Below are positions 32,816 through 40,789 of a stretch of DNA of 64,000 bases, in pieces. Position numbers and translations under genes: made by a program. Source of the DNA: Tilletiopsis washingtonensis. Taxonomy: Eukaryota > Basidiomycota > Exobasidiomycetes > Entylomatales. The stretch covers positions 1 to 64,000 of the forward strand of contig NW_020312022.1 of assembly GCF_003144115.1 (NCBI RefSeq), in the 5' to 3' direction. The notes under the pieces were generated by a model. It was not told where the DNA came from and did no database searches. It saw only the letters and a program-made list of their open reading frames with translations. How positions within the stretch are numbered: position 1 is the first letter of the stretch; each line of letters starts with the position of its first letter.

Positions 32816-34017
32816 GACGTGGGCATCCAACACAGAGCATTCACAGCCACTGCCCAACACATGTGAGGCGAGGGCACGTTTTCGTGTGGGGGCAGACTGC
32901 TGCGCAAGCAGCCACACGGCCCCTGGCCGCGCATCGAGGCCAGAGATTTGCGCAGGTGCAAGGAACGGATGGGTCCGGAGATGTCAGCGGGCAAGAGGCG
33001 CCGGTGCAGAGGAGAATGCCAGGCGCGAAGGAGAGCGCAAGGGTCGATACCGCGTTCGACGTCGAACCGGACGCTGAGGCAGAGTCAGAATGCCAGCCTG
33101 CATGCATGAAATGCCGCGGGGCAGAGGGCAATCAGCACGCAGCACGGGCGCAGGAGAGGACGCCGCTCTCATGCCGACAGGCGCCAAGCACGAGGACGTA
33201 TGCCGGCCGCCAGGCGCCAGGCGCCAACCGCCGGCGCCGGGAGCCGACAGCTTGCCGAGCCGCAGCGCCCGCAGGATGCGCCGGCGGCAATCTCCGCAAA
33301 GTGCGTTCCACAGGCGGAGCCGGTGCGACGGCAGTGAGGAGAGCGGGCGCTGTGACAAGGGCGCCTGAGCATATAGCGTGCGTGCGGGGCCCCGCGGCCG
33401 CATGGCAGCAGACATGCACGCCAAGCACGGCATACTGCGCCCGCGTCCCGTCACGCACGGCCGGACATGCGGCGTGCATGAGCACAGGCAGCTGCGGCGG
33501 ATGCGGCATCTGATGCTGCGCTGCAAGGCCGCGGGCAGCATGCAGATGCAGCGGCCCAACGCCAGCGGGCAGACTAGAGCTGCAAGCTGTGGGAGAGGGC
33601 CGCTTTGCCGCTGGATGCTGGGTGCCGTGTCGAGACACAGCGTCTCCCGTTGCGCGTGAGGGAGCTCACGCCATCCCGCAGACATCTCGGATCGGACGCA
33701 TCCGCGTCCTGATGCGTGCCGGCAGGCCGTGCGCTACCCCGCACGAGGGTCCAGCACAGCCGGCAGCATGCGAACCGTGAGTGTCGAGGCGGCTGCGGGC
33801 ACGGCGCTCAGCCGGACCAGGCGGCAGCGCAGGCACGGCATCACACGCACACTCCCGCTAGCGACGGCCAGGTACGGGCCTATGCTGACGGCAGTGCTCG
33901 CCCTGCACGCCGGATGGTGCAGTGCCTCGCACGGCACCCCGCATCGCTGCTGTGCACGTCGAAGCGCCTGCTAGGCCTGCTGCTGGGGTGCGAGAGGTCC
34001 TGACCGGCACGCTTGCG
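32816..34017. other. Long gene-free upstream region of the GH93 gene
   Basis: About 1.2 kb between the RRP5 stop and the GH93 TATA box. Open frames exist on both strands (for example 33132-33638 minus) but their proteins are compositionally odd, without domains, and lack plausible splice structure. The most likely content is a long regulatory region for a nutrient-controlled gene. Confidence 0.55.
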
Positions 34018-34025
34018 TATAAAAG
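34018..34025 (+). promoter_or_regulatory. TATA box of the GH93 gene
   Basis: A perfect TATAAAAG sits 65 bases before the GH93 start codon. Clean TATA boxes are uncommon in this GC-rich window and are typical of strongly regulated genes. Confidence 0.75.
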
Positions 34026-34089
34026 GAGCTCGAGACGAGGCCCAAAGGTCAGGCGGCACAGCAAATCCTCACCTTGGTCTTCAGCAGCC

Positions 34090-35283
34090 ATGCTCGCCGC
34101 AAGCCGCTCTCCGCTCGCCTTCGTCTTCGTGGCGCTGGCCTTTCTGGCTGCCACCTGCCTCGGCTCGCCGACGGTCGCCGGCCTGGCGGACCGCAACGGC
34201 GTCTCGAAGCGCGACTTTGGCCCCGTGACGATCTACACGCCGCCGTCCAACTACCAGCGCGAGCGCTCCCTCTACGCCCGCCACGTCATGCTCAACGACA
34301 GCATCGGCACCATCCTCGCCACGTGGGAGAACTACTCGCCGGCCGGCTCGCCGCCGTGGTTCCCCATCTACCGCTCGACGGACCACGGCTACACCTGGTC
34401 GCAGCTCAGCACCGTGCGCGACACGGTCAACGGCTGGGGCCTGCGCTACCAGCCCGAGCTGTACCAGCTCAAGAACGCCGTCGGCTCGTGGCCCAAGGGC
34501 ACCGTGCTCTGCGCCGGCAACTCGATCCCCGACGACCTGAGCCAGACGAAGCTCGACATCTACGCCTCCAAGGACGCCGGCGCCACCTGGACCTTCGTCT
34601 CGTCCGTCGCCCGCGGCGGCCGCGCCTACCCCGACAACGGCGAGACGCCCGTCTGGGAGCCGTTCTTTATGGAGTACAACGGCCAGCTCGTCATGTACTA
34701 CTCGGACCAGCGCGACAGCGCCTACGGGCAGAAGATTGTGCACCAAGTCTCGTCGGACCTGCGCAACTGGGGCTCCGTCGTCAACGACGTCGCTGTGTCG
34801 CCGTACAGCGCACGTCCGGGCATGCCGACGATTGCCAAGCTGCCCAACGGCCAGTACATCATGACGTACGAGTACGGCGGCGCCTCCGAGGCCAACTTTG
34901 CAATCTACTACAAGCTCAGCTCCAACCCGCTCAACTTCGGCAGCGCCTCGGGCCGTGTGCTGCGCACCACGGATGGCGCCGTATTCACGAGCTCGCCGTA
35001 CGTCGTCTGGACGCCTGCCGGCAGCGCCAGTGGAACGAGCAACGGCGCCATCGTCGTCTCGGCGATGAGCTCGACAGATCTCTTCGTCAACCGCGCGCTT
35101 GGCGACCCGTCGAAGTGGACGCGCCTCAGCGCACCGGGCACGGCTGGTGCCTACTCGCGCTCCCTCTCCGTCGGCTTCCTGCCCAAGGACATCGTCATCA
35201 CGGACGGCGGCTACCTCAATGCGGGCAGCAGCAACAAGGTGACGTTTGCGGCCCGCGACGTCAACGGCTGCAACACGTGCTAG
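34090..35283 (+). CDS. Secreted GH93-type exo-arabinanase
   Basis: GH93 enzymes attack the non-reducing ends of linear alpha-1,5-arabinan and release arabinobiose. Intronless, 397 residues. A signal peptide is clear (SPLAFVFVALAFLAATCLGS), with a KR at about 40 that could be a Kex2 site. The sialidase-like beta-propeller shows Asp-box-type motifs, STDHGYTWSQ and SKDAGATWTF. Family-like blocks are YQPELYQL, WEPFFMEYNGQLVMYYSDQR and RPGMPTIAKLPNGQYIMTYE, and the C terminus ends in a CNTC pair. The start is the first Met after the TATA box; upstream in-frame codons lack a signal peptide. It sits tail to tail with an MFS porter and near a GH51 enzyme, which supports the arabinan assignment. Confidence 0.8.
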   Translation: MLAASRSPLAFVFVALAFLAATCLGSPTVAGLADRNGVSKRDFGPVTIYTPPSNYQRERSLYARHVMLNDSIGTILATWENYSPAGSPPWFPIYRSTDHGYTWSQLSTVRDTVNGWGLRYQPELYQLKNAVGSWPKGTVLCAGNSIPDDLSQTKLDIYASKDAGATWTFVSSVARGGRAYPDNGETPVWEPFFMEYNGQLVMYYSDQRDSAYGQKIVHQVSSDLRNWGSVVNDVAVSPYSARPGMPTIAKLPNGQYIMTYEYGGASEANFAIYYKLSSNPLNFGSASGRVLRTTDGAVFTSSPYVVWTPAGSASGTSNGAIVVSAMSSTDLFVNRALGDPSKWTRLSAPGTAGAYSRSLSVGFLPKDIVITDGGYLNAGSSNKVTFAARDVNGCNTC

Positions 35284-35902
35284 GCGGTGCAGGAAGCAGG
35301 CCGCTCGGAGGCACTCTGGTCTTCGGGCCCGGCGCCATGTATGCGGCGCGGTGATGCTTTGGTAATTGATATGTCTCTGTCGAAAACCACATCTCGTGCT
35401 ATCTGATGGCTGCGCGCGTGTGAAGTCGTTTGACGTGCTGTGGCAGGCTCTGCAGCGCAACGCAATCGCCGCGGCACGCGCACGCGAGCAGCAGGCCCCT
35501 GCCGCACTCGGACGCGACGCGCGGCGTAGCATGCTTTCGCGTCGGCGCGTGCACCCAGCTCTCACTCTCGCTGCGCTTGCTGGATACTCGGCCCACTCGA
35601 CCTCTGCAAGACCGCACCGCACAATCTATAATCAGACTGCGGATGCTCGAGATGAAAAATGTATCCGCCTCGGATGGGCGCTCGGCTCGCTGCGGTGCCT
35701 AGCCACGCCGCGGTCACAGTACAGGCAGCAGAGTAGGGAGTGCGATTTCTCAATTCACAGCCAACGAGCAATTGGGAATACAGAGACAGTGAGCGACCGG
35801 TGAGAGGACGCGCGACGCAGGGGAGAGAGGCCAGAAAGAAACATCGAGGGCGCGTGACAGGCGTGACGAGAGAGAGAGAGAAGGCGCGCGACGTCGACGC
35901 GA
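35284..35902. other. Convergent spacer between GH93 and the sugar porter
   Basis: About 620 bases between the two stop codons. It is a little more AT-rich than its surroundings and has a short GAGAGA run near 35872. No gene or RNA recognised. Confidence 0.5.
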
Positions 35903-37563
35903 CTAGACCTTCTGCGCGAGCTTCTCGTCGTTGTTGCTGTACTTGTCGCTGTCGCCGGCCGAAGGCACCTGCTGCACCTGCTGCAGCACCTCGTCGGCGC
36001 CGGTGACGGCCGTGATGCCGCGGCGCAGCTCCTCCTCGCGCTCCGTGGCGCTGCGCAGCCCGCGCGACTTGTGGAGCGGCACGAGGTAGCCCGACTCGTT
36101 GATGTACTGCTCCATCTCCTCGAGCGTTCGGCCGGCCGTCTCGGGGAAGAAGAGGTAGAACGTGAGGGCGTTGGTGAACGAACACACGACGAAGACGAGA
36201 TAATATCTCCAGCCGATGCTGTCCAGTGCGATCGGCGAGACTTGGGCGATCATGAAGTTGGCGACCCAGCACGCCATGCTGGTGACCGCCGTTCCCTTGG
36301 CGCGGATGGACGTCGAGAAGATTTCTGCAGGATAAGCCCAGCTGATAGGGCCGACGGCGCAGCTGAATGCGAAGTTGAAGAGCCACGTCATGACGATGTA
36401 CGCGTAGGCGGCTCCGATGTTGCCAGTCGATGCCGGGTAGCGCGCCTGAAGCGCTGTGCCGATGATGAACGTCACGCCAATGGCGATGTTGGCCCAGATG
36501 AGAGGCTGGCGACGTCCGAGGCGATCGACGAGGAGAATGCAGGAGAACTGTGCGATCAGCGCGACGACGCTGCTGATGCTCTGGAAGAGAAGCGAGCGCT
36601 CGGCGCCGAAGCCGAGGTTGGCGAAGACGGCCGGAGCGTAGTACTGGAAGACAGAGACGCCGGTCATCTGCACGCTGAACTGCAGCGTGATGCCCATGAG
36701 GATGCGGCGGAAGTTCTTGCGGTTGGTGAAGAGCGAGGCCCAGCCCGTCTCGACCTCGCGCTCGTGTGCCAGCGCAGCCTTGAGCTCGGCGGCCTCGGCG
36801 AGCACGAGATTGTCCTTGGTGTCGCCGTTGGCGTGCAGGCGAGCGAGCGCAGCGACGGACTCCTCCTCCTTGCCGACGGACATGAGCCAGCGCGGCGACT
36901 CGGGGAAGAGGAAGATCATCGTGGCGAGCGGCACACATGGAGCCATCTGCAGGCCGAGCGGGAAGCGCCACTGGGCGGCGGTGCCGGCGTGGTGCACCTG
37001 CATGCCGTAGACGACAAACGAGGCGATGAAAGCGCCGATGCCGAGGAAGAATTGCTGCAGCGTCGTGAGCCTGCCCCGAATCGAAGGGTGGGCGATCTCG
37101 GACTGGTAGAGCGGCGCAAGCATGGACAACATTCCAATTGCCATCCCTGCAAAGAAGCGGCCTGCAATCATCATCTCGCGGTTCATGGCGGCCGTCTAGA
37201 GGACGCAGAGGCAGTGAGCGACGCGTCCGGCGCAGAAGTGACGCGTCTGGCGCAGGGGCGCCGCGGCAGACTCACCTGCAGGATGCCACCGAGCATAAAG
37301 ATCACACAGCCCACCACGATGGCCCAGCGACGGCCAAAGCGGTCGGCGAGCAGGCCGGCGGGGATGCAGCCGCAGAAGGCGCCGAGGAGCAGCGCGCTCA
37401 CGATGAAGCCGATGTACGTGGCGTCGGGGTTGCCCGTCGTGTCGATGAAGTCCTGGGCAACGAGCACACCGGCGATGACACCGAGGTCGTAGCCGAAGAG
37501 GATGGAGCCGAGCGCAACGAAGCAGCCCGTGGCGAAGGTAAATGCCTTCGGAGATAGACCCAT
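35903..37563 (-). CDS. MFS sugar porter in the arabinan cluster
   Basis: A twelve-helix sugar/proton symporter of the sugar porter family in the plasma membrane. Two exons, 37563-37276 and 37195-35903, give 526 residues. Family marks are GSILFGYDLGVIAGVL in helix 1, GLLADRFGRRWAIVVG, PLYQSEIAHPSIRGRL, then PESPRWLM and ILLVDRLGRRQPLIW. The second half has AVGPISWAYPAEIFSTSIRAKG and ends FFPETAGRTLEEMEQYI. The tail is polar (SAGDSDKYSNNDEKLAQKV). The substrate is not readable from the family marks. Its neighbours, a GH93 enzyme that makes arabinobiose and a GH51 enzyme without a signal peptide, point to L-arabinose or arabinobiose by inference. Confidence 0.9.
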
Positions 37564-38971
37564 GGCGGCGGAAGAGGGGGGGAGGAAGTGGGAGAGGAGG
37601 ATTATGGACAGGCGATGTCCGAGGCTGTCGAGTGCCAGGCTATATAGGCCACGGGATAGGGTGTGCTGCCGCTGCCTCTGGAAGGAGCGCTTGTGAAGGG
37701 CGACGCAGGAACGGGCGCGCTTAGGGCAGCGCACATCTCTGGCTCGCCGGACGCAGGACACGACGGGACGGCGCTGCGGACAGACAGCTCGAGGGAGCAG
37801 CGTGCATGGCGGCAGCCGCAGGGTGCAGGCATGGCGTGCCCTGCATGCTGTCCTGCGGCTGGCTGTTGACGCGAGGCACTGGCCACGGCCACGGCGCACG
37901 GCAGCGGCAGGCGCCGAGTGCCGGACGGCGGAGCTGGCGCGCCGCGTCGCGTGGCCTGGGAACCCCACACTGCGCCACTCCGCGGCCGCAGCGCAGCATG
38001 CTGATACTGCACGTCGGCCGTTGCACGGCGTGCTGCTGCTGCAAATGAGGGCGGAGCAGTGCTGCGATCGTGCCGCCGCAGAGTCCGTGGCGCCGTCTAC
38101 CCCGCATCGCTGCACGTTCCTGCCGCGTGCTGATTTCGCGCCGACATGCACGCGTCGCGCCTATGTCGCGCAGTGCAGCACAGCGGCGCAAATGGCGCAA
38201 GGCTCACGCTCGCCAGCCCGCGGGACTTTCGCCGTCCGCTCAGATTCCCGCCGCTACGCGCGCCTTTCCCGCGCGGCATAACAGCTGCTGCTGCAGGCAC
38301 GACGCTTGGCAAGCGGCGGAGCTGCAGGGGTGCAGCACGTGCAGCCGCGCGCAGGAGGGCGCCGTGCGGCGGGAGTGCGCGGCGCGGCGCCGCGCACCGC
38401 CCGCGCGCCGCCATCCCGCCCGCGCTGCGCCCCGCACTCGCGTCTGTCGCGCCCACCGCGTGGTCGCACGTCGCAGCCGCATGCCGCTTCACATGCCACC
38501 TGCCCTGCAGCCGCAGACAGCACAGCAAGCGGCAGAGATCAGCGATGCACTTTGCCGAGCTGCGTCCATGCGCCGCGAGAATGCCGCCGGGTACCGCACC
38601 GCCTGCGCCGGCGCCCGGCGGCCGGCAGCGTGTGCGCCGCCGGAGCGGACACGGGCCCGTCGGGAATCGCAGCGTCAGTCGGGAATCACAGCGTGCAGGG
38701 GCTTCGTGATAGACGCATCTCTCCGTCCCTTGCCTTGTCCTCTTGCGGCTCCGCCGTCGCCGCCCTGGCCACGCAAAGTGCGGGGTAAGGGCCGCGGGAT
38801 GCAGAGCCGGCCGTGTCCAGTCCCTGCGTCGTGCCGCACGGCCGGCACACTGGCCCGTGCGGCCGCGAGCCGAGCCAGGAAGCTGCTCAGGGCCGCAAAT
38901 GCAGTTTCGCAGCAGTGACGAGGGCGCGTCAGGCAACCACCACCACACCCCAGCAAGCATCCGCGCCCGCC
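37564..38971. other. Divergent promoter region of sugar porter and GH51
   Basis: A 1.4 kb gene-free interval shared by two divergent genes. Open frames occur on both strands but are compositionally biased (many His, Arg and Cys) and carry no domain. It is far longer than the 170 to 300 base divergent promoters of the housekeeping genes in this window, which suggests complex regulation. Confidence 0.6.
37640..37647 (-). promoter_or_regulatory. TATA box of the sugar porter
   Basis: CTATATAG lies about 77 bases upstream of the porter start codon on the minus strand. With the TATA box of the GH93 gene, it suggests that cluster members share a regulated promoter style. Confidence 0.65.
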
Positions 38972-40789
38972 ATGGTGAGCGCCCAGCACTCGACGTCGCT
39001 CTCCAAAGCGCCGCTGCGCATCGCCGTGGGCGCGCCCGCCGTGTCGGCCGCGCGGCCCTGCCTCGGCAGCCTCCAGGACGACGAGGCAGCAGCATCAGAC
39101 AAGGTCGCGCTGCCCAGCGGCGCCGTGTACGTGCCCAAGCGCCTCTACTCGGGCTTCCTCGAGCACCTCGGACGCTGCATCTACGGCGGCATCGTCAACG
39201 ACCCCGCCGAGCCGAGCCCACAGGAGCTCCTGGCGCCGCTCGAGTGGAAGGCCGACCCGGCGGCCGACTCGGCACTGACGCTGCCGGGCCGCCTGCCGCT
39301 GCGCATCGATGTGCTGCACGAGCTGGCGCGCGAGATGGGCGTCAAGGTCGCCGACTGGGCCTCGCTCTCGGGCGCCGAGCGCCGCCAGCGCCCGCTGCTG
39401 CGCTGGCCCGGCGGCAACTACGTGAGCAACTACCACTGGCAAGACGGCATCGGCCCGCTCTCCGAGCGCCCGACGCGCATCGAGCTGGCGTGGCACTCGA
39501 CGGAGACGAACCTCTTCGGCACAGACGAGTTCATCGAGTACTGCCGTCTGCTCGGCGTCGAGCCGTACCTGTGCCTCAACATGGGCACGGGCACGCTCGA
39601 CGAGGCACTCGCCTGGCTCGAGTACTGCAACGGCACGGGCAACACGCACTGGGCCAACCTGCGGCGCAAGCACACCGGCCGCGACGCGCCGCACGCCATC
39701 CGCTTCTGGGGCCTGGGCAACGAGATGTGGGGCGAGTGGCAGGTCGGCCGCATGAACGCCGACGAGTACACGCGCACGGCGCAGCGCTGGGCGCACGCAC
39801 TCAAGCTCGTCGACCCCAGCATCGTGCTCGTGTCGTGCGGCAAGGAGGGCGCCACCGAGTGGGACTGGACCGTGCTCAAGGGCCTCACGGGCGCCGTCGA
39901 CATGCACAGCATCCACTACTACTCGATGCTGACGCACCAGAAGCACGTGCGCTCCGACGAGGCGGCCAACGAGCCGCTGGGCGGCGGCGCGTTTGGCGCA
40001 TACGAGAAGAACGTCTTTGGCGCCGCGACGGCCGAGGCGTTCATCCGCACCTGCGCGCGCCTCATCGACCTGGCGCGCATCGAGCACTACTTCGACCGGC
40101 CGCTGGAGGGCCTGCGCGAGGCCGTCGGCGGCACGGGCAAGGCGCCGATCGGCATCTGCTTCGACGAGTGGAACGTGTGGGACGACCACAAGGCGACGCC
40201 GCAGCGCGGCCTCGAACAGCGCTACGACTACACCGACATGCTCGGCACCATTGCCTGGCTGCACGTGCTGGTGCGCAACGCCGACCGCGTGCCGATTGCG
40301 TGCCTGGCGCAGAGCGTCAATGTGCTCTCGCCGCTGCTCACCAGCGGCACGACGACGCTGCGCCAGGCGACGTACTATCCCGTCTCGCTCTTTGCCGAGC
40401 ACATGAGCCACGCGCTGCTGCTGCAGCACACGCTCGCGCTCGACGTGTACGAGGGCCCGACGTTCCCCGCGTGGGTGCGCGATGTGTCGCGGCCGGCGTA
40501 CGTCGACGTCGTGGCGGTGCGCTCGCTGGCCACGGGCGCCGTGCACGTCAGCGTGCTCAACCGACACCCCACGGCGGCGTGGGAGGCGCCGCTGCTGCTC
40601 GACGACCACACGTTCGCCAGCGTCGAGGTGCACAGCATGCAGAGCGACGACCTGGCGGCGGTGAACACGTTTGAGGCGCCCGACGTGCTTACGCCGCACG
40701 TCGCGACGCTCAGCGCCGCCGAGTGGCAGCAGGCGCAGGGCGTGCATGCCGTGCCGGCGCACTCGTGGGCGCTCTTCCTCTTCCGCTAG
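38972..40789 (+). CDS. Intracellular GH51 alpha-L-arabinofuranosidase
   Basis: Removes terminal L-arabinofuranose from short arabino-oligosaccharides by a retaining mechanism. Intronless, 605 residues, with no signal peptide, so it is expected in the cytosol. Blocks shared with bacterial-type intracellular AbfA enzymes are LYSGFLEHLGRCIYGGI, LLRWPGGNYVSNYHWQDGIG and IELAWHSTETNLFGTDEFIE. The acid/base Glu lies in IRFWGLGNEMWGEWQVG and the nucleophile Glu in GICFDEWNVWDDH. Compared with the bacterial type there is an extra stretch of roughly 30 residues (LEWKADPAADSALTLPGR and after) before the RWPGGN block. The ATG is followed by GTGAGC, which resembles a donor, but the frame is open throughout. 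Confidence 0.9.
   Translation: MVSAQHSTSLSKAPLRIAVGAPAVSAARPCLGSLQDDEAAASDKVALPSGAVYVPKRLYSGFLEHLGRCIYGGIVNDPAEPSPQELLAPLEWKADPAADSALTLPGRLPLRIDVLHELAREMGVKVADWASLSGAERRQRPLLRWPGGNYVSNYHWQDGIGPLSERPTRIELAWHSTETNLFGTDEFIEYCRLLGVEPYLCLNMGTGTLDEALAWLEYCNGTGNTHWANLRRKHTGRDAPHAIRFWGLGNEMWGEWQVGRMNADEYTRTAQRWAHALKLVDPSIVLVSCGKEGATEWDWTVLKGLTGAVDMHSIHYYSMLTHQKHVRSDEAANEPLGGGAFGAYEKNVFGAATAEAFIRTCARLIDLARIEHYFDRPLEGLREAVGGTGKAPIGICFDEWNVWDDHKATPQRGLEQRYDYTDMLGTIAWLHVLVRNADRVPIACLAQSVNVLSPLLTSGTTTLRQATYYPVSLFAEHMSHALLLQHTLALDVYEGPTFPAWVRDVSRPAYVDVVAVRSLATGAVHVSVLNRHPTAAWEAPLLLDDHTFASVEVHSMQSDDLAAVNTFEAPDVLTPHVATLSAAEWQQAQGVHAVPAHSWALFLFR

Follow-up and report, generated by a model that had tools for sequence, protein, structure and literature searches.

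Three adjacent genes in Tilletiopsis washingtonensis, encoding a secreted GH93 enzyme, a sugar porter and a GH51 enzyme, probably form an arabinan-to-cytosol uptake module, a basidiomycete counterpart of LAC12-LAC4 with predicted import of arabinobiose. Fungal arabinan breakdown is usually pictured as completed outside the cell. In the module proposed here, the secreted GH93 would clip arabinobiose from plant arabinan outside the cell. The MFS porter, most likely proton-coupled, would move arabinobiose, and probably related short arabinofuranosides too, over the plasma membrane, and a cytosolic GH51 would then cleave arabinobiose to L-arabinose for the pentose pathway. Porter and GH51 may be the older core, which GH93 probably joined later, in part of Ustilaginomycotina. 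Arabinobiose import with a cytosolic final cut is the best-supported reading of these sequences, having gained from the linkage of porter and GH51, from the leaderless relatives of the GH51 and from a porter pocket unlike that of XylE. That arabinobiose is the porter's substrate, and that the trio is co-induced, we infer.

The window, the whole 64-kb stretch of DNA that was analysed, holds the genes in the order GH93, porter, GH51, with the porter on the strand opposite to both enzymes. The GH93 gene, for an exo-1,5-alpha-L-arabinanase (arabinobiohydrolase), is intronless and lies on the plus strand at 34090..35283 (ATG at 34090, stop at 35281-35283), encoding 397 aa with a predicted N-terminal signal peptide. 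The porter, of the SP family of the MFS, lies on the minus strand in two exons recovered by a protein search of its own genome: exon 1 (37276..37563, residues 1-96) and exon 2 (35903..37195, residues 97-526 and the stop). Between them is an 80-bp GT-AG intron (37196..37275, minus strand), whose splice sites were predicted from the sequence by eye. The GH51 alpha-L-arabinofuranosidase gene is on the plus strand at 38972..40789 (ATG at 38972, stop at 40787-40789) and encodes 605 aa without a signal peptide, predicted to be cytosolic. GH93 and porter converge, 619 bp apart from stop to stop, and porter and GH51 diverge across 1,408 bp (37564..38971), probably a shared promoter region. The sequence-only reading had placed the three genes side by side, and all three were found at their positions. 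It had also allowed no other gene between them, which holds for the gap frames tested: six open frames of more within the gaps, five of them in the porter/GH51 region, gave no Pfam match.

The GH93 protein aligns over query residues 41-391 with the solved GH93 structures 2w5n, 3a71, 2ydt and 2ydp (E 6e-107 to 7.5e-106) and is the single match of its kind in its own genome. Its leader is strongly hydrophobic, with a 10-residue Kyte-Doolittle maximum of 2.98. E190, E261 and Y355 fall at the positions of the catalytic residues E170/E242/Y337 of PMC11813348, given an offset of 14 in the catalytic numbering that was inferred from the 2w5n alignment. GH93 exo-arabinanases release arabinobiose (PMC11813348), and the locus GH93, its catalytic residues kept, is predicted to do the same. 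In a Ustilago secretome a GH93 is highly abundant and was detected on starch, not arabinan (PMC11312366), so arabinan-specific induction is not favoured.

The closest solved relative of the GH51 protein is 8i0a (E 1.9e-124 over residues 47-573). Its C-terminal arabinofuranosidase domain, PF06964, is matched at a Pfam E of 5e-29, the only PF06964 match in the genome, and PF22848 reaches 20.2 bits, below its cut-off of 22.2. GNEMW (E251) and FDEWNVW (E399), which we take to be the acid/base and nucleophile glutamate motifs of GH51, are both present, and both glutamates are invariant across nine aligned proteins. The database model P0123 omits a 14-residue segment (39347..39388, plus strand), apparently treated as a 42-bp intron. 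Because Meira P0124 holds a 14-residue segment aligned to it, this stretch is more likely coding than intron.

The start of the GH51 is less hydrophobic than the GH93 leader (10-residue maximum 1.73), and its relatives are alike in this. With a strong leader defined as a 10-residue Kyte-Doolittle hydropathy of at least 2.0, strongly hydrophobic starts occur in 0 of 121 GH51 proteins compared with 105 of 120 GH93 proteins, among the best 120 relatives listed per family; the GH51 set is the locus protein plus its 120 listed relatives, including a database copy of the same gene. These starts point to a cytosolic location for the GH51. The GH51 enzyme SfABF51 of Saccharomycopsis fibuligera also lacks a signal peptide, from which its authors infer intracellular enzymes (PMC9705838); P0217, from a congener of this yeast, is 40% identical to the locus GH51. 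It is improbable that the GH51 is instead exported unconventionally to work on the wall, leaving the porter just to recover released L-arabinose. Such a role has a precedent in Ustilago maydis, where afg1 and afg2 (GH51) and afg3 (GH62) are treated as wall-degrading and their triple deletion reduces plant penetration (PMC4102580), a likeness to the locus GH51 at family level. The absence of any strong leader among the 121 proteins speaks against it, as does the inference of the Saccharomycopsis authors.

The 526-aa, two-exon porter is a member of the MFS sugar porter family, with a Pfam Sugar_tr match at E 4e-108 and the signature motifs GRR, PESPRW and PETAGR. TIGR00879 gives 286 bits against a cut-off of 238, scored on P0003, a metagenome copy of porter exon 2. 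The fold is clear from the sequence, and comparison with XylE points to an altered pocket. We take XylE Q168, Q288, Q289, N294, N325, W392 and Q415 to be its polar sugar contacts. The porter departs from this contact set of XylE/GLUT/STP-type monosaccharide carriers, keeping Q168, Q289 and W392 and changing four (Q288 to V, N294 to S, N325 to A and Q415 to C). The alteration is conserved across its family, judging from the best 120 relatives listed, a set that includes a metagenome copy of the same gene. XylE Q288 is retained in 0 of 119, N294 in 0, N325 in 2 and Q415 in 0 of 120 of these relatives, and Q168 and Q289 in 119 of 119, W392 in 120 and W416 in 117 of 120. At the position of XylE L297, glutamine is found in all 120. 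The QQ pair is retained at 9 of the 13 readable porter paralogue loci of the same genome. The changed residues do not by themselves identify the substrate.

A different role for the porter, as an importer of L-arabinose or of pentoses and hexoses in general, is unlikely but deserves weight. Secreted GH43 enzymes would then finish arabinobiose, and the GH51 would trim arabinofuranosides that enter or arise inside the cell in other ways. The sugar porter family itself fits this reading; the porter's closest solved members are monosaccharide carriers, and database names of its relatives include 'glucose transporter', beside 'quinate permease'. The genome also holds three GH43 matches, two above the family cut-off. 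Starts that look secreted lie near one of these, L002, and near L004, which is below the cut-off; L002 also weakly resembles the exo-arabinofuranosidase 3akf (E 3e-6), so arabinobiose might be finished outside. Searches of the genome for GH62 and GH54 gave no match, with controls equally silent. Against a monosaccharide importer stand the four XylE contacts changed in nearly all of the 120 relatives, set beside a QQ pair that most paralogue loci keep. Arabinose import would, moreover, leave the lasting pairing with a leaderless GH51 unexplained. Import of an arabinofuranoside is the simplest explanation for a predicted cytosolic arabinofuranosidase that stays beside a porter.

That pairing extends well beyond this genome. 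The nearest relatives of porter and GH51 share one contig in 23 of the 39 species present in both listings (2.48 expected), and in 14 of 26 species they share a contig shorter than 1 Mb (0.59 expected), the P values of the latter count serving as a guide only, as the species are not independent. In 16 of the 39 species the pair was not seen on one contig. Linkage was read from contig sizes and locus tags in lists of the best 120 proteins per query, a cluster's contig size being that of its longest contig. The count took 104 of 120 porter, 90 of 120 GH51 and 20 of 120 GH93 rows. It left out most metagenome rows, rows without a contig, the window's own gene and non-basidiomycete GH93 rows, and Rhizoctonia rows without a strain did not enter the tally of species. 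That tally of 39 comprises 38 names plus one further assembly, and different strains of one species (e.g. Kwoniella heveanensis, Schizophyllum commune) were scored as not linked. Closer adjacency is seen in two Kwoniella species with consecutive porter and GH51 locus tags (IAR55_004226/004227 and L201_001424/001425). In Marasmius and Pleurotus the two are fused into one gene model (P0207 and P0213), on one strand there as against divergent in T. washingtonensis. On these listings, many Basidiomycota conserve porter and GH51 as a pair, a finding new here. Chance neighbourhood of genes with no common function is already disfavoured and very improbable. The unrelated flanking genes (a HAT-repeat protein, a class-I glutamine amidotransferase and Pescadillo) would suit it, against a porter-GH51 co-location far above expectation and an adjacency that recurs in Kwoniella, Marasmius and Pleurotus with a strand layout differing from that here.

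GH93 is a looser partner of the pair. Among basidiomycete GH93 rows, 2 of 12 species have it on the porter's contig and 3 of 9 on that of GH51, against 1.0 expected in either comparison. Testicularia and Violaceomyces have GH93 on the contig of GH51, with the listed porter elsewhere. A contig filed under Adiantum nelumboides carries GH93 and porter close together (tags L7F22_044274 and L7F22_044276). All three genes adjacent in a second genome were not found in the contigs and locus tags of the protein listings. In place of the trio whose synteny in relatives the sequence-only reading had proposed to seek, the porter-GH51 pair emerged as the conserved unit. The sparse linkage of GH93 leaves a smaller but real chance that porter and GH51 serve general arabinofuranoside salvage, for example of arabinoxylo-oligosaccharides, with GH93 a local addition; this reading overlaps with the preferred one, and the odds of the two do not sum to one. 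The Saccharomycopsis GH51 cleaves arabinoxylo-oligosaccharides too, and yet prefers arabinobiose among arabino-oligosaccharides (PMC9705838). The nearness of GH93 to the porter, both here and in the contig filed under Adiantum nelumboides, likewise argues for arabinobiose at those loci.

Promoter sequences were compared within the window and the genome. TATAWA occurs at three places in the window, two of which belong to locus genes: TATAAA at 34018..34023 (plus strand), 72 bp ahead of the GH93 start codon, and TATATA at 37641..37646 (minus strand), 83 bp ahead of that of the porter. None lies ahead of GH51. Patterns for CreA, XlnR, AraR, CCAAT and Gal4-like sites, ascomycete arabinose and xylan regulators among them, showed no enrichment either ahead of GH93 or within the divergent region. 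These two regions share 28 10-mers against 15.1 in first-order shuffles and 13 11-mers against 4.6, and the excess is less clear for 12-mers (5 against 1.2, P 0.07). The longest common word is the 15-bp ACCCCGCATCGCTGC, a weak candidate for a common regulatory site, found on the plus strand upstream of GH93 (33936..33950) and inside the divergent region (38099..38113). The genome has exactly two copies of the 14-bp core of this word, both of them at the locus, against roughly one expected from base composition. With up to two mismatches ACCCCGCATCGCTGC has 6 sites in the window against 4.4 expected, and with up to one it has 102 in the genome, where its reversed pattern has 14. Another word that both regions share, 11 bp long, was equally unremarkable (6 sites against 3.7 with one mismatch). 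A shared 15-mer also turns up by chance, in 3% of shuffles of second order and in 7% of window pairs drawn at random, and we give ACCCCGCATCGCTGC no great weight as evidence of co-regulation.

A wider claim, for which we judge the chances about even, is that the porter founds a dedicated arabinofuranoside (arabinobiose) transporter family across Basidiomycota, tied to cytosolic GH51. If so, many mushrooms, yeasts and smuts would import arabinan fragments intact and complete their breakdown inside the cell. As far as the searched literature shows, this would also be the first eukaryotic system described for arabino-oligosaccharide uptake. A search by title and abstract opening, with most subscription journals outside its scope, found no fungal arabinobiose transporter or GH93/GH51/porter cluster, an absence that is weak evidence. 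Basidiomycetes with such a module would keep part of the arabinan sugar private through disaccharide import, much as lactose and cellobiose are imported by some fungi. On this proposal, a large porter family with generic or perhaps wrong names gains a specific substrate that can be tested, and the engineering of yeast toward arabinan-rich plant residues gains a ready two-gene part.

Known systems resemble the locus in different parts. In bacteria such as Bacillus subtilis and Weissella cibaria, arabinan is cut outside, short arabino-oligosaccharides are imported and an intracellular GH51 or GH43 acts on them. W. cibaria grows on arabinobiose and not on arabinotriose, and the extracellular step of B. 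subtilis is a GH43 endo-arabinanase, where the T. washingtonensis locus has GH93 (PMC9705838, PMC7125115, PMC11813348). S. fibuligera shares the leaderless GH51, but it is an ascomycete yeast, and the cited passages on SfABF51 describe no porter partner (PMC9705838). The porter here adjoins a hydrolase gene without a signal peptide, the fungal pattern of a permease with an intracellular hydrolase. In the LAC12-LAC4 and CEL1-CEL2 pairs of Kluyveromyces, a sugar porter likewise adjoins the hydrolase of the imported disaccharide; these differ in serving lactose or cellobiose, with a lactase or cellobiase, in budding yeasts, and the cited passages mention no secreted polysaccharide-cutting partner, a place taken here by GH93 (PMC6926475). 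In Neurospora crassa the porter NCU00809 adjoins NCU00810, predicted to be intracellular and related to beta-galactosidases, and clusters like it occur in many fungi (PMC10774165). NCU00809 and CDT-1/CDT-2 are disaccharide porters for lactose and cellodextrins, not arabinofuranosides, and NCU00809 is likened to the locus by its arrangement (PMC10774165). With the LAC12-LAC4, CEL1-CEL2 and NCU00809-NCU00810 pairs known (PMC6926475, PMC10774165), the earlier suggestion of a strategy unlike that of fungi was too strong. By analogy with these pairs, the locus would be a known fungal strategy with a new sugar.

The genome around the window spans 18.7 Mb in 32 contigs, and the window itself has a G+C content of 69%. 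T. washingtonensis, an exobasidiomycete within the Ustilaginomycotina, lives on leaf surfaces. Gene models place a GH93 exo-1,5-alpha-L-arabinanase at 34090-35283 on the forward strand, an MFS sugar porter with one 80-bp intron at 37563-35903 on the reverse strand, and a GH51 alpha-L-arabinofuranosidase at 38972-40789 on the forward strand. The porter and GH93 are convergent, and GH51 and the porter are divergent. The sequence-only reading had put the three genes side by side. The models bear this out, and none of the six open frames tested within the gaps between them has a Pfam match. The flanking genes (a HAT-repeat protein, a glutamine amidotransferase, and Pescadillo) are not tied to sugar use.

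For each of the two enzyme families, a single member was found in the genome. GH93 aligns with four distinct GH93 sequences of known structure, with E-values no higher than 7.5e-106. The catalytic residues named in a 2025 review (PMC11813348) correspond to E190, E261, and Y355 in the window enzyme, with an alignment offset of 14 inferred in chain 2w5n. The abstract of that review gives arabinobiose as the product of GH93 enzymes "exclusively", and another part says "primarily". GH51 matches the solved structure 8i0a at E 1.9e-124 and retains both Glu motifs on motif inspection. Its database copy (P0123) differs solely by the absence of a 14-residue segment (39347-39388), which resembles removal of a 42-bp intron. 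Since a homologous 14-residue stretch is present in Meira P0124, the reading of 605 residues is the more likely one.

The proposed route, in which the porter would import arabinobiose and GH51 split it in the cytosol, joins two genes that are linked well beyond this genome. We compared the best 120 listed porters with the best 120 listed GH51 proteins, judging a contig to be shared when its listed size was equal in both lists; no contig size coincided between different species. Porter and GH51 lie on one contig in 23 of the 39 species present in both lists, against 2.48 expected for an 18-Mb genome per species (larger genomes would lower this expectation). On contigs below 1 Mb the pair is together in 14 of 26 (0.59 expected), and below 200 kb in 4 of 7 (0.02 expected). 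The pair lacks a common contig in 16 of the 39 species, where some rows are different strains or possible paralogues. Consecutive locus tags mark adjoining genes in Kwoniella newhampshirensis (IAR55_004226/004227) and K. dendrophila (L201_001424/001425). In Marasmius (P0207, 958 aa) and Pleurotus (P0213, 983 aa), GH51 continues directly into the porter within one database protein. The GH51 tail and the first porter residues are missing at the junction, so these proteins are most likely adjacent same-strand genes joined by the gene caller. The pair is divergent in the window and on the same strand in these two genera; the neighbourhood has therefore outlived a change of orientation.

We assessed leaders by simple hydropathy among best-listed GH93 and GH51 proteins, some of which may be incomplete. 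At a cut-off of 2.0, 105 of 120 GH93 and 0 of 121 GH51 proteins have a strong leader, in keeping with the earlier claim of a leader on GH93 and none on GH51. Lowering the cut-off to 1.6 raises these numbers to 115 and 10, and the window GH51 and its database copy are among those 10. In a study of Saccharomycopsis fibuligera (PMC9705838), GH51 enzymes likewise lack a signal peptide and are taken by the authors as intracellular, with activity on arabinobiose 5.5 to 31.7 times that on longer linear and branched arabino-oligosaccharides. The window GH51 shares 40% identity with P0217, a protein from this genus. For GH93, a study of the Ustilago secretome (PMC11312366) reports one abundant member in culture on starch.

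Alternatively, arabinan could be finished outside the cell by a putative secreted GH43, which is possible because the genome has three GH43 matches, some with secreted-looking starts. Two exceed the family cut-off, and the third (L004) falls below it with an internal stop. The secreted-looking starts belong to L002, which weakly resembles the secreted exo-arabinofuranosidase 3akf (E 3e-6), and to a frame adjoining the L004 match. The last exon of L003 weakly matches GH43 enzymes including endo-arabinanases, and its best E-value is to a carbonic anhydrase entry. GH62 and GH54 gave no match in the genome, though control queries were equally silent. Three loci with matches to FGGY kinases are consistent with a pentose pathway.

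For the porter pocket, we compared positions with XylE, a monosaccharide porter, at residues that we take to be sugar contacts. The equivalents of Q168, Q289, W392, and W416 are retained, and Q288, N294, N325, and Q415 are replaced by V, S, A, and C. Among the best 120 listed relatives, including one metagenome copy of the window porter, none of the 119 scored retains Q288; of all 120, none retains N294 or Q415, 2 retain N325, and 117 retain W416, and every one has Gln at the L297 position. Own-genome paralogues, the nearest 31-35% identical over long stretches, retain the QQ pair in 9 of 13 loci readable at both positions (5 further loci are unreadable there). The changes support a different ligand, without pointing to any particular one.

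The 64-kb window contains three TATAWA sites (34018, 37641, and 1630). The first two stand 72 and 83 bp ahead of GH93 and the porter, respectively, and none precedes GH51. A 15-mer common to the GH93 upstream and the divergent region is a weak candidate for a shared regulatory site.

GH93 is a looser partner. It shares a contig with the porter in 2 of 12 species and with GH51 in 3 of 9 (about 1.0 expected for each). Sympodiomycopsis carries all three genes on one contig, a weak case because that contig is 4.5 Mb. GH51 and GH93 share a 391 kb contig in Testicularia and a 111 kb contig in Violaceomyces, with the listed porter elsewhere in both. Records filed under the fern Adiantum nelumboides (P0022 and P0253) also have GH93 and the porter two locus tags apart, on a fungal-looking contig of 135,561 bases that is likely contamination or an endophyte. 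In the synteny check proposed earlier, porter-GH51 linkage stood, but no second genome with all three genes adjacent is shown among the species of the contig and locus-tag comparison. From these few cases, we infer that GH93 joined an older porter-GH51 pair within the Ustilaginomycotina to give the trio. GH93 relatives of 54-62% identity (P0245, P0247, and P0284) occur in the chytrids Cladochytrium and Zopfochytrium and in Streptomyces, there with ricin-type domains; GH93 might have been transferred between kingdoms.

Titles and abstract openings in a literature search yielded no published description of such a porter/GH51/GH93 cluster. Bacteria handle arabino-oligosaccharides by the same strategy as that proposed here; Weissella cibaria can use arabinobiose for growth, and the enzyme involved is expected to act inside the cell (PMC7125115). 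The novelty lies in the proposed sugar, the hydrolase family of the partner, and the spread over Basidiomycota, together with the secreted GH93 beside the pair in the window.
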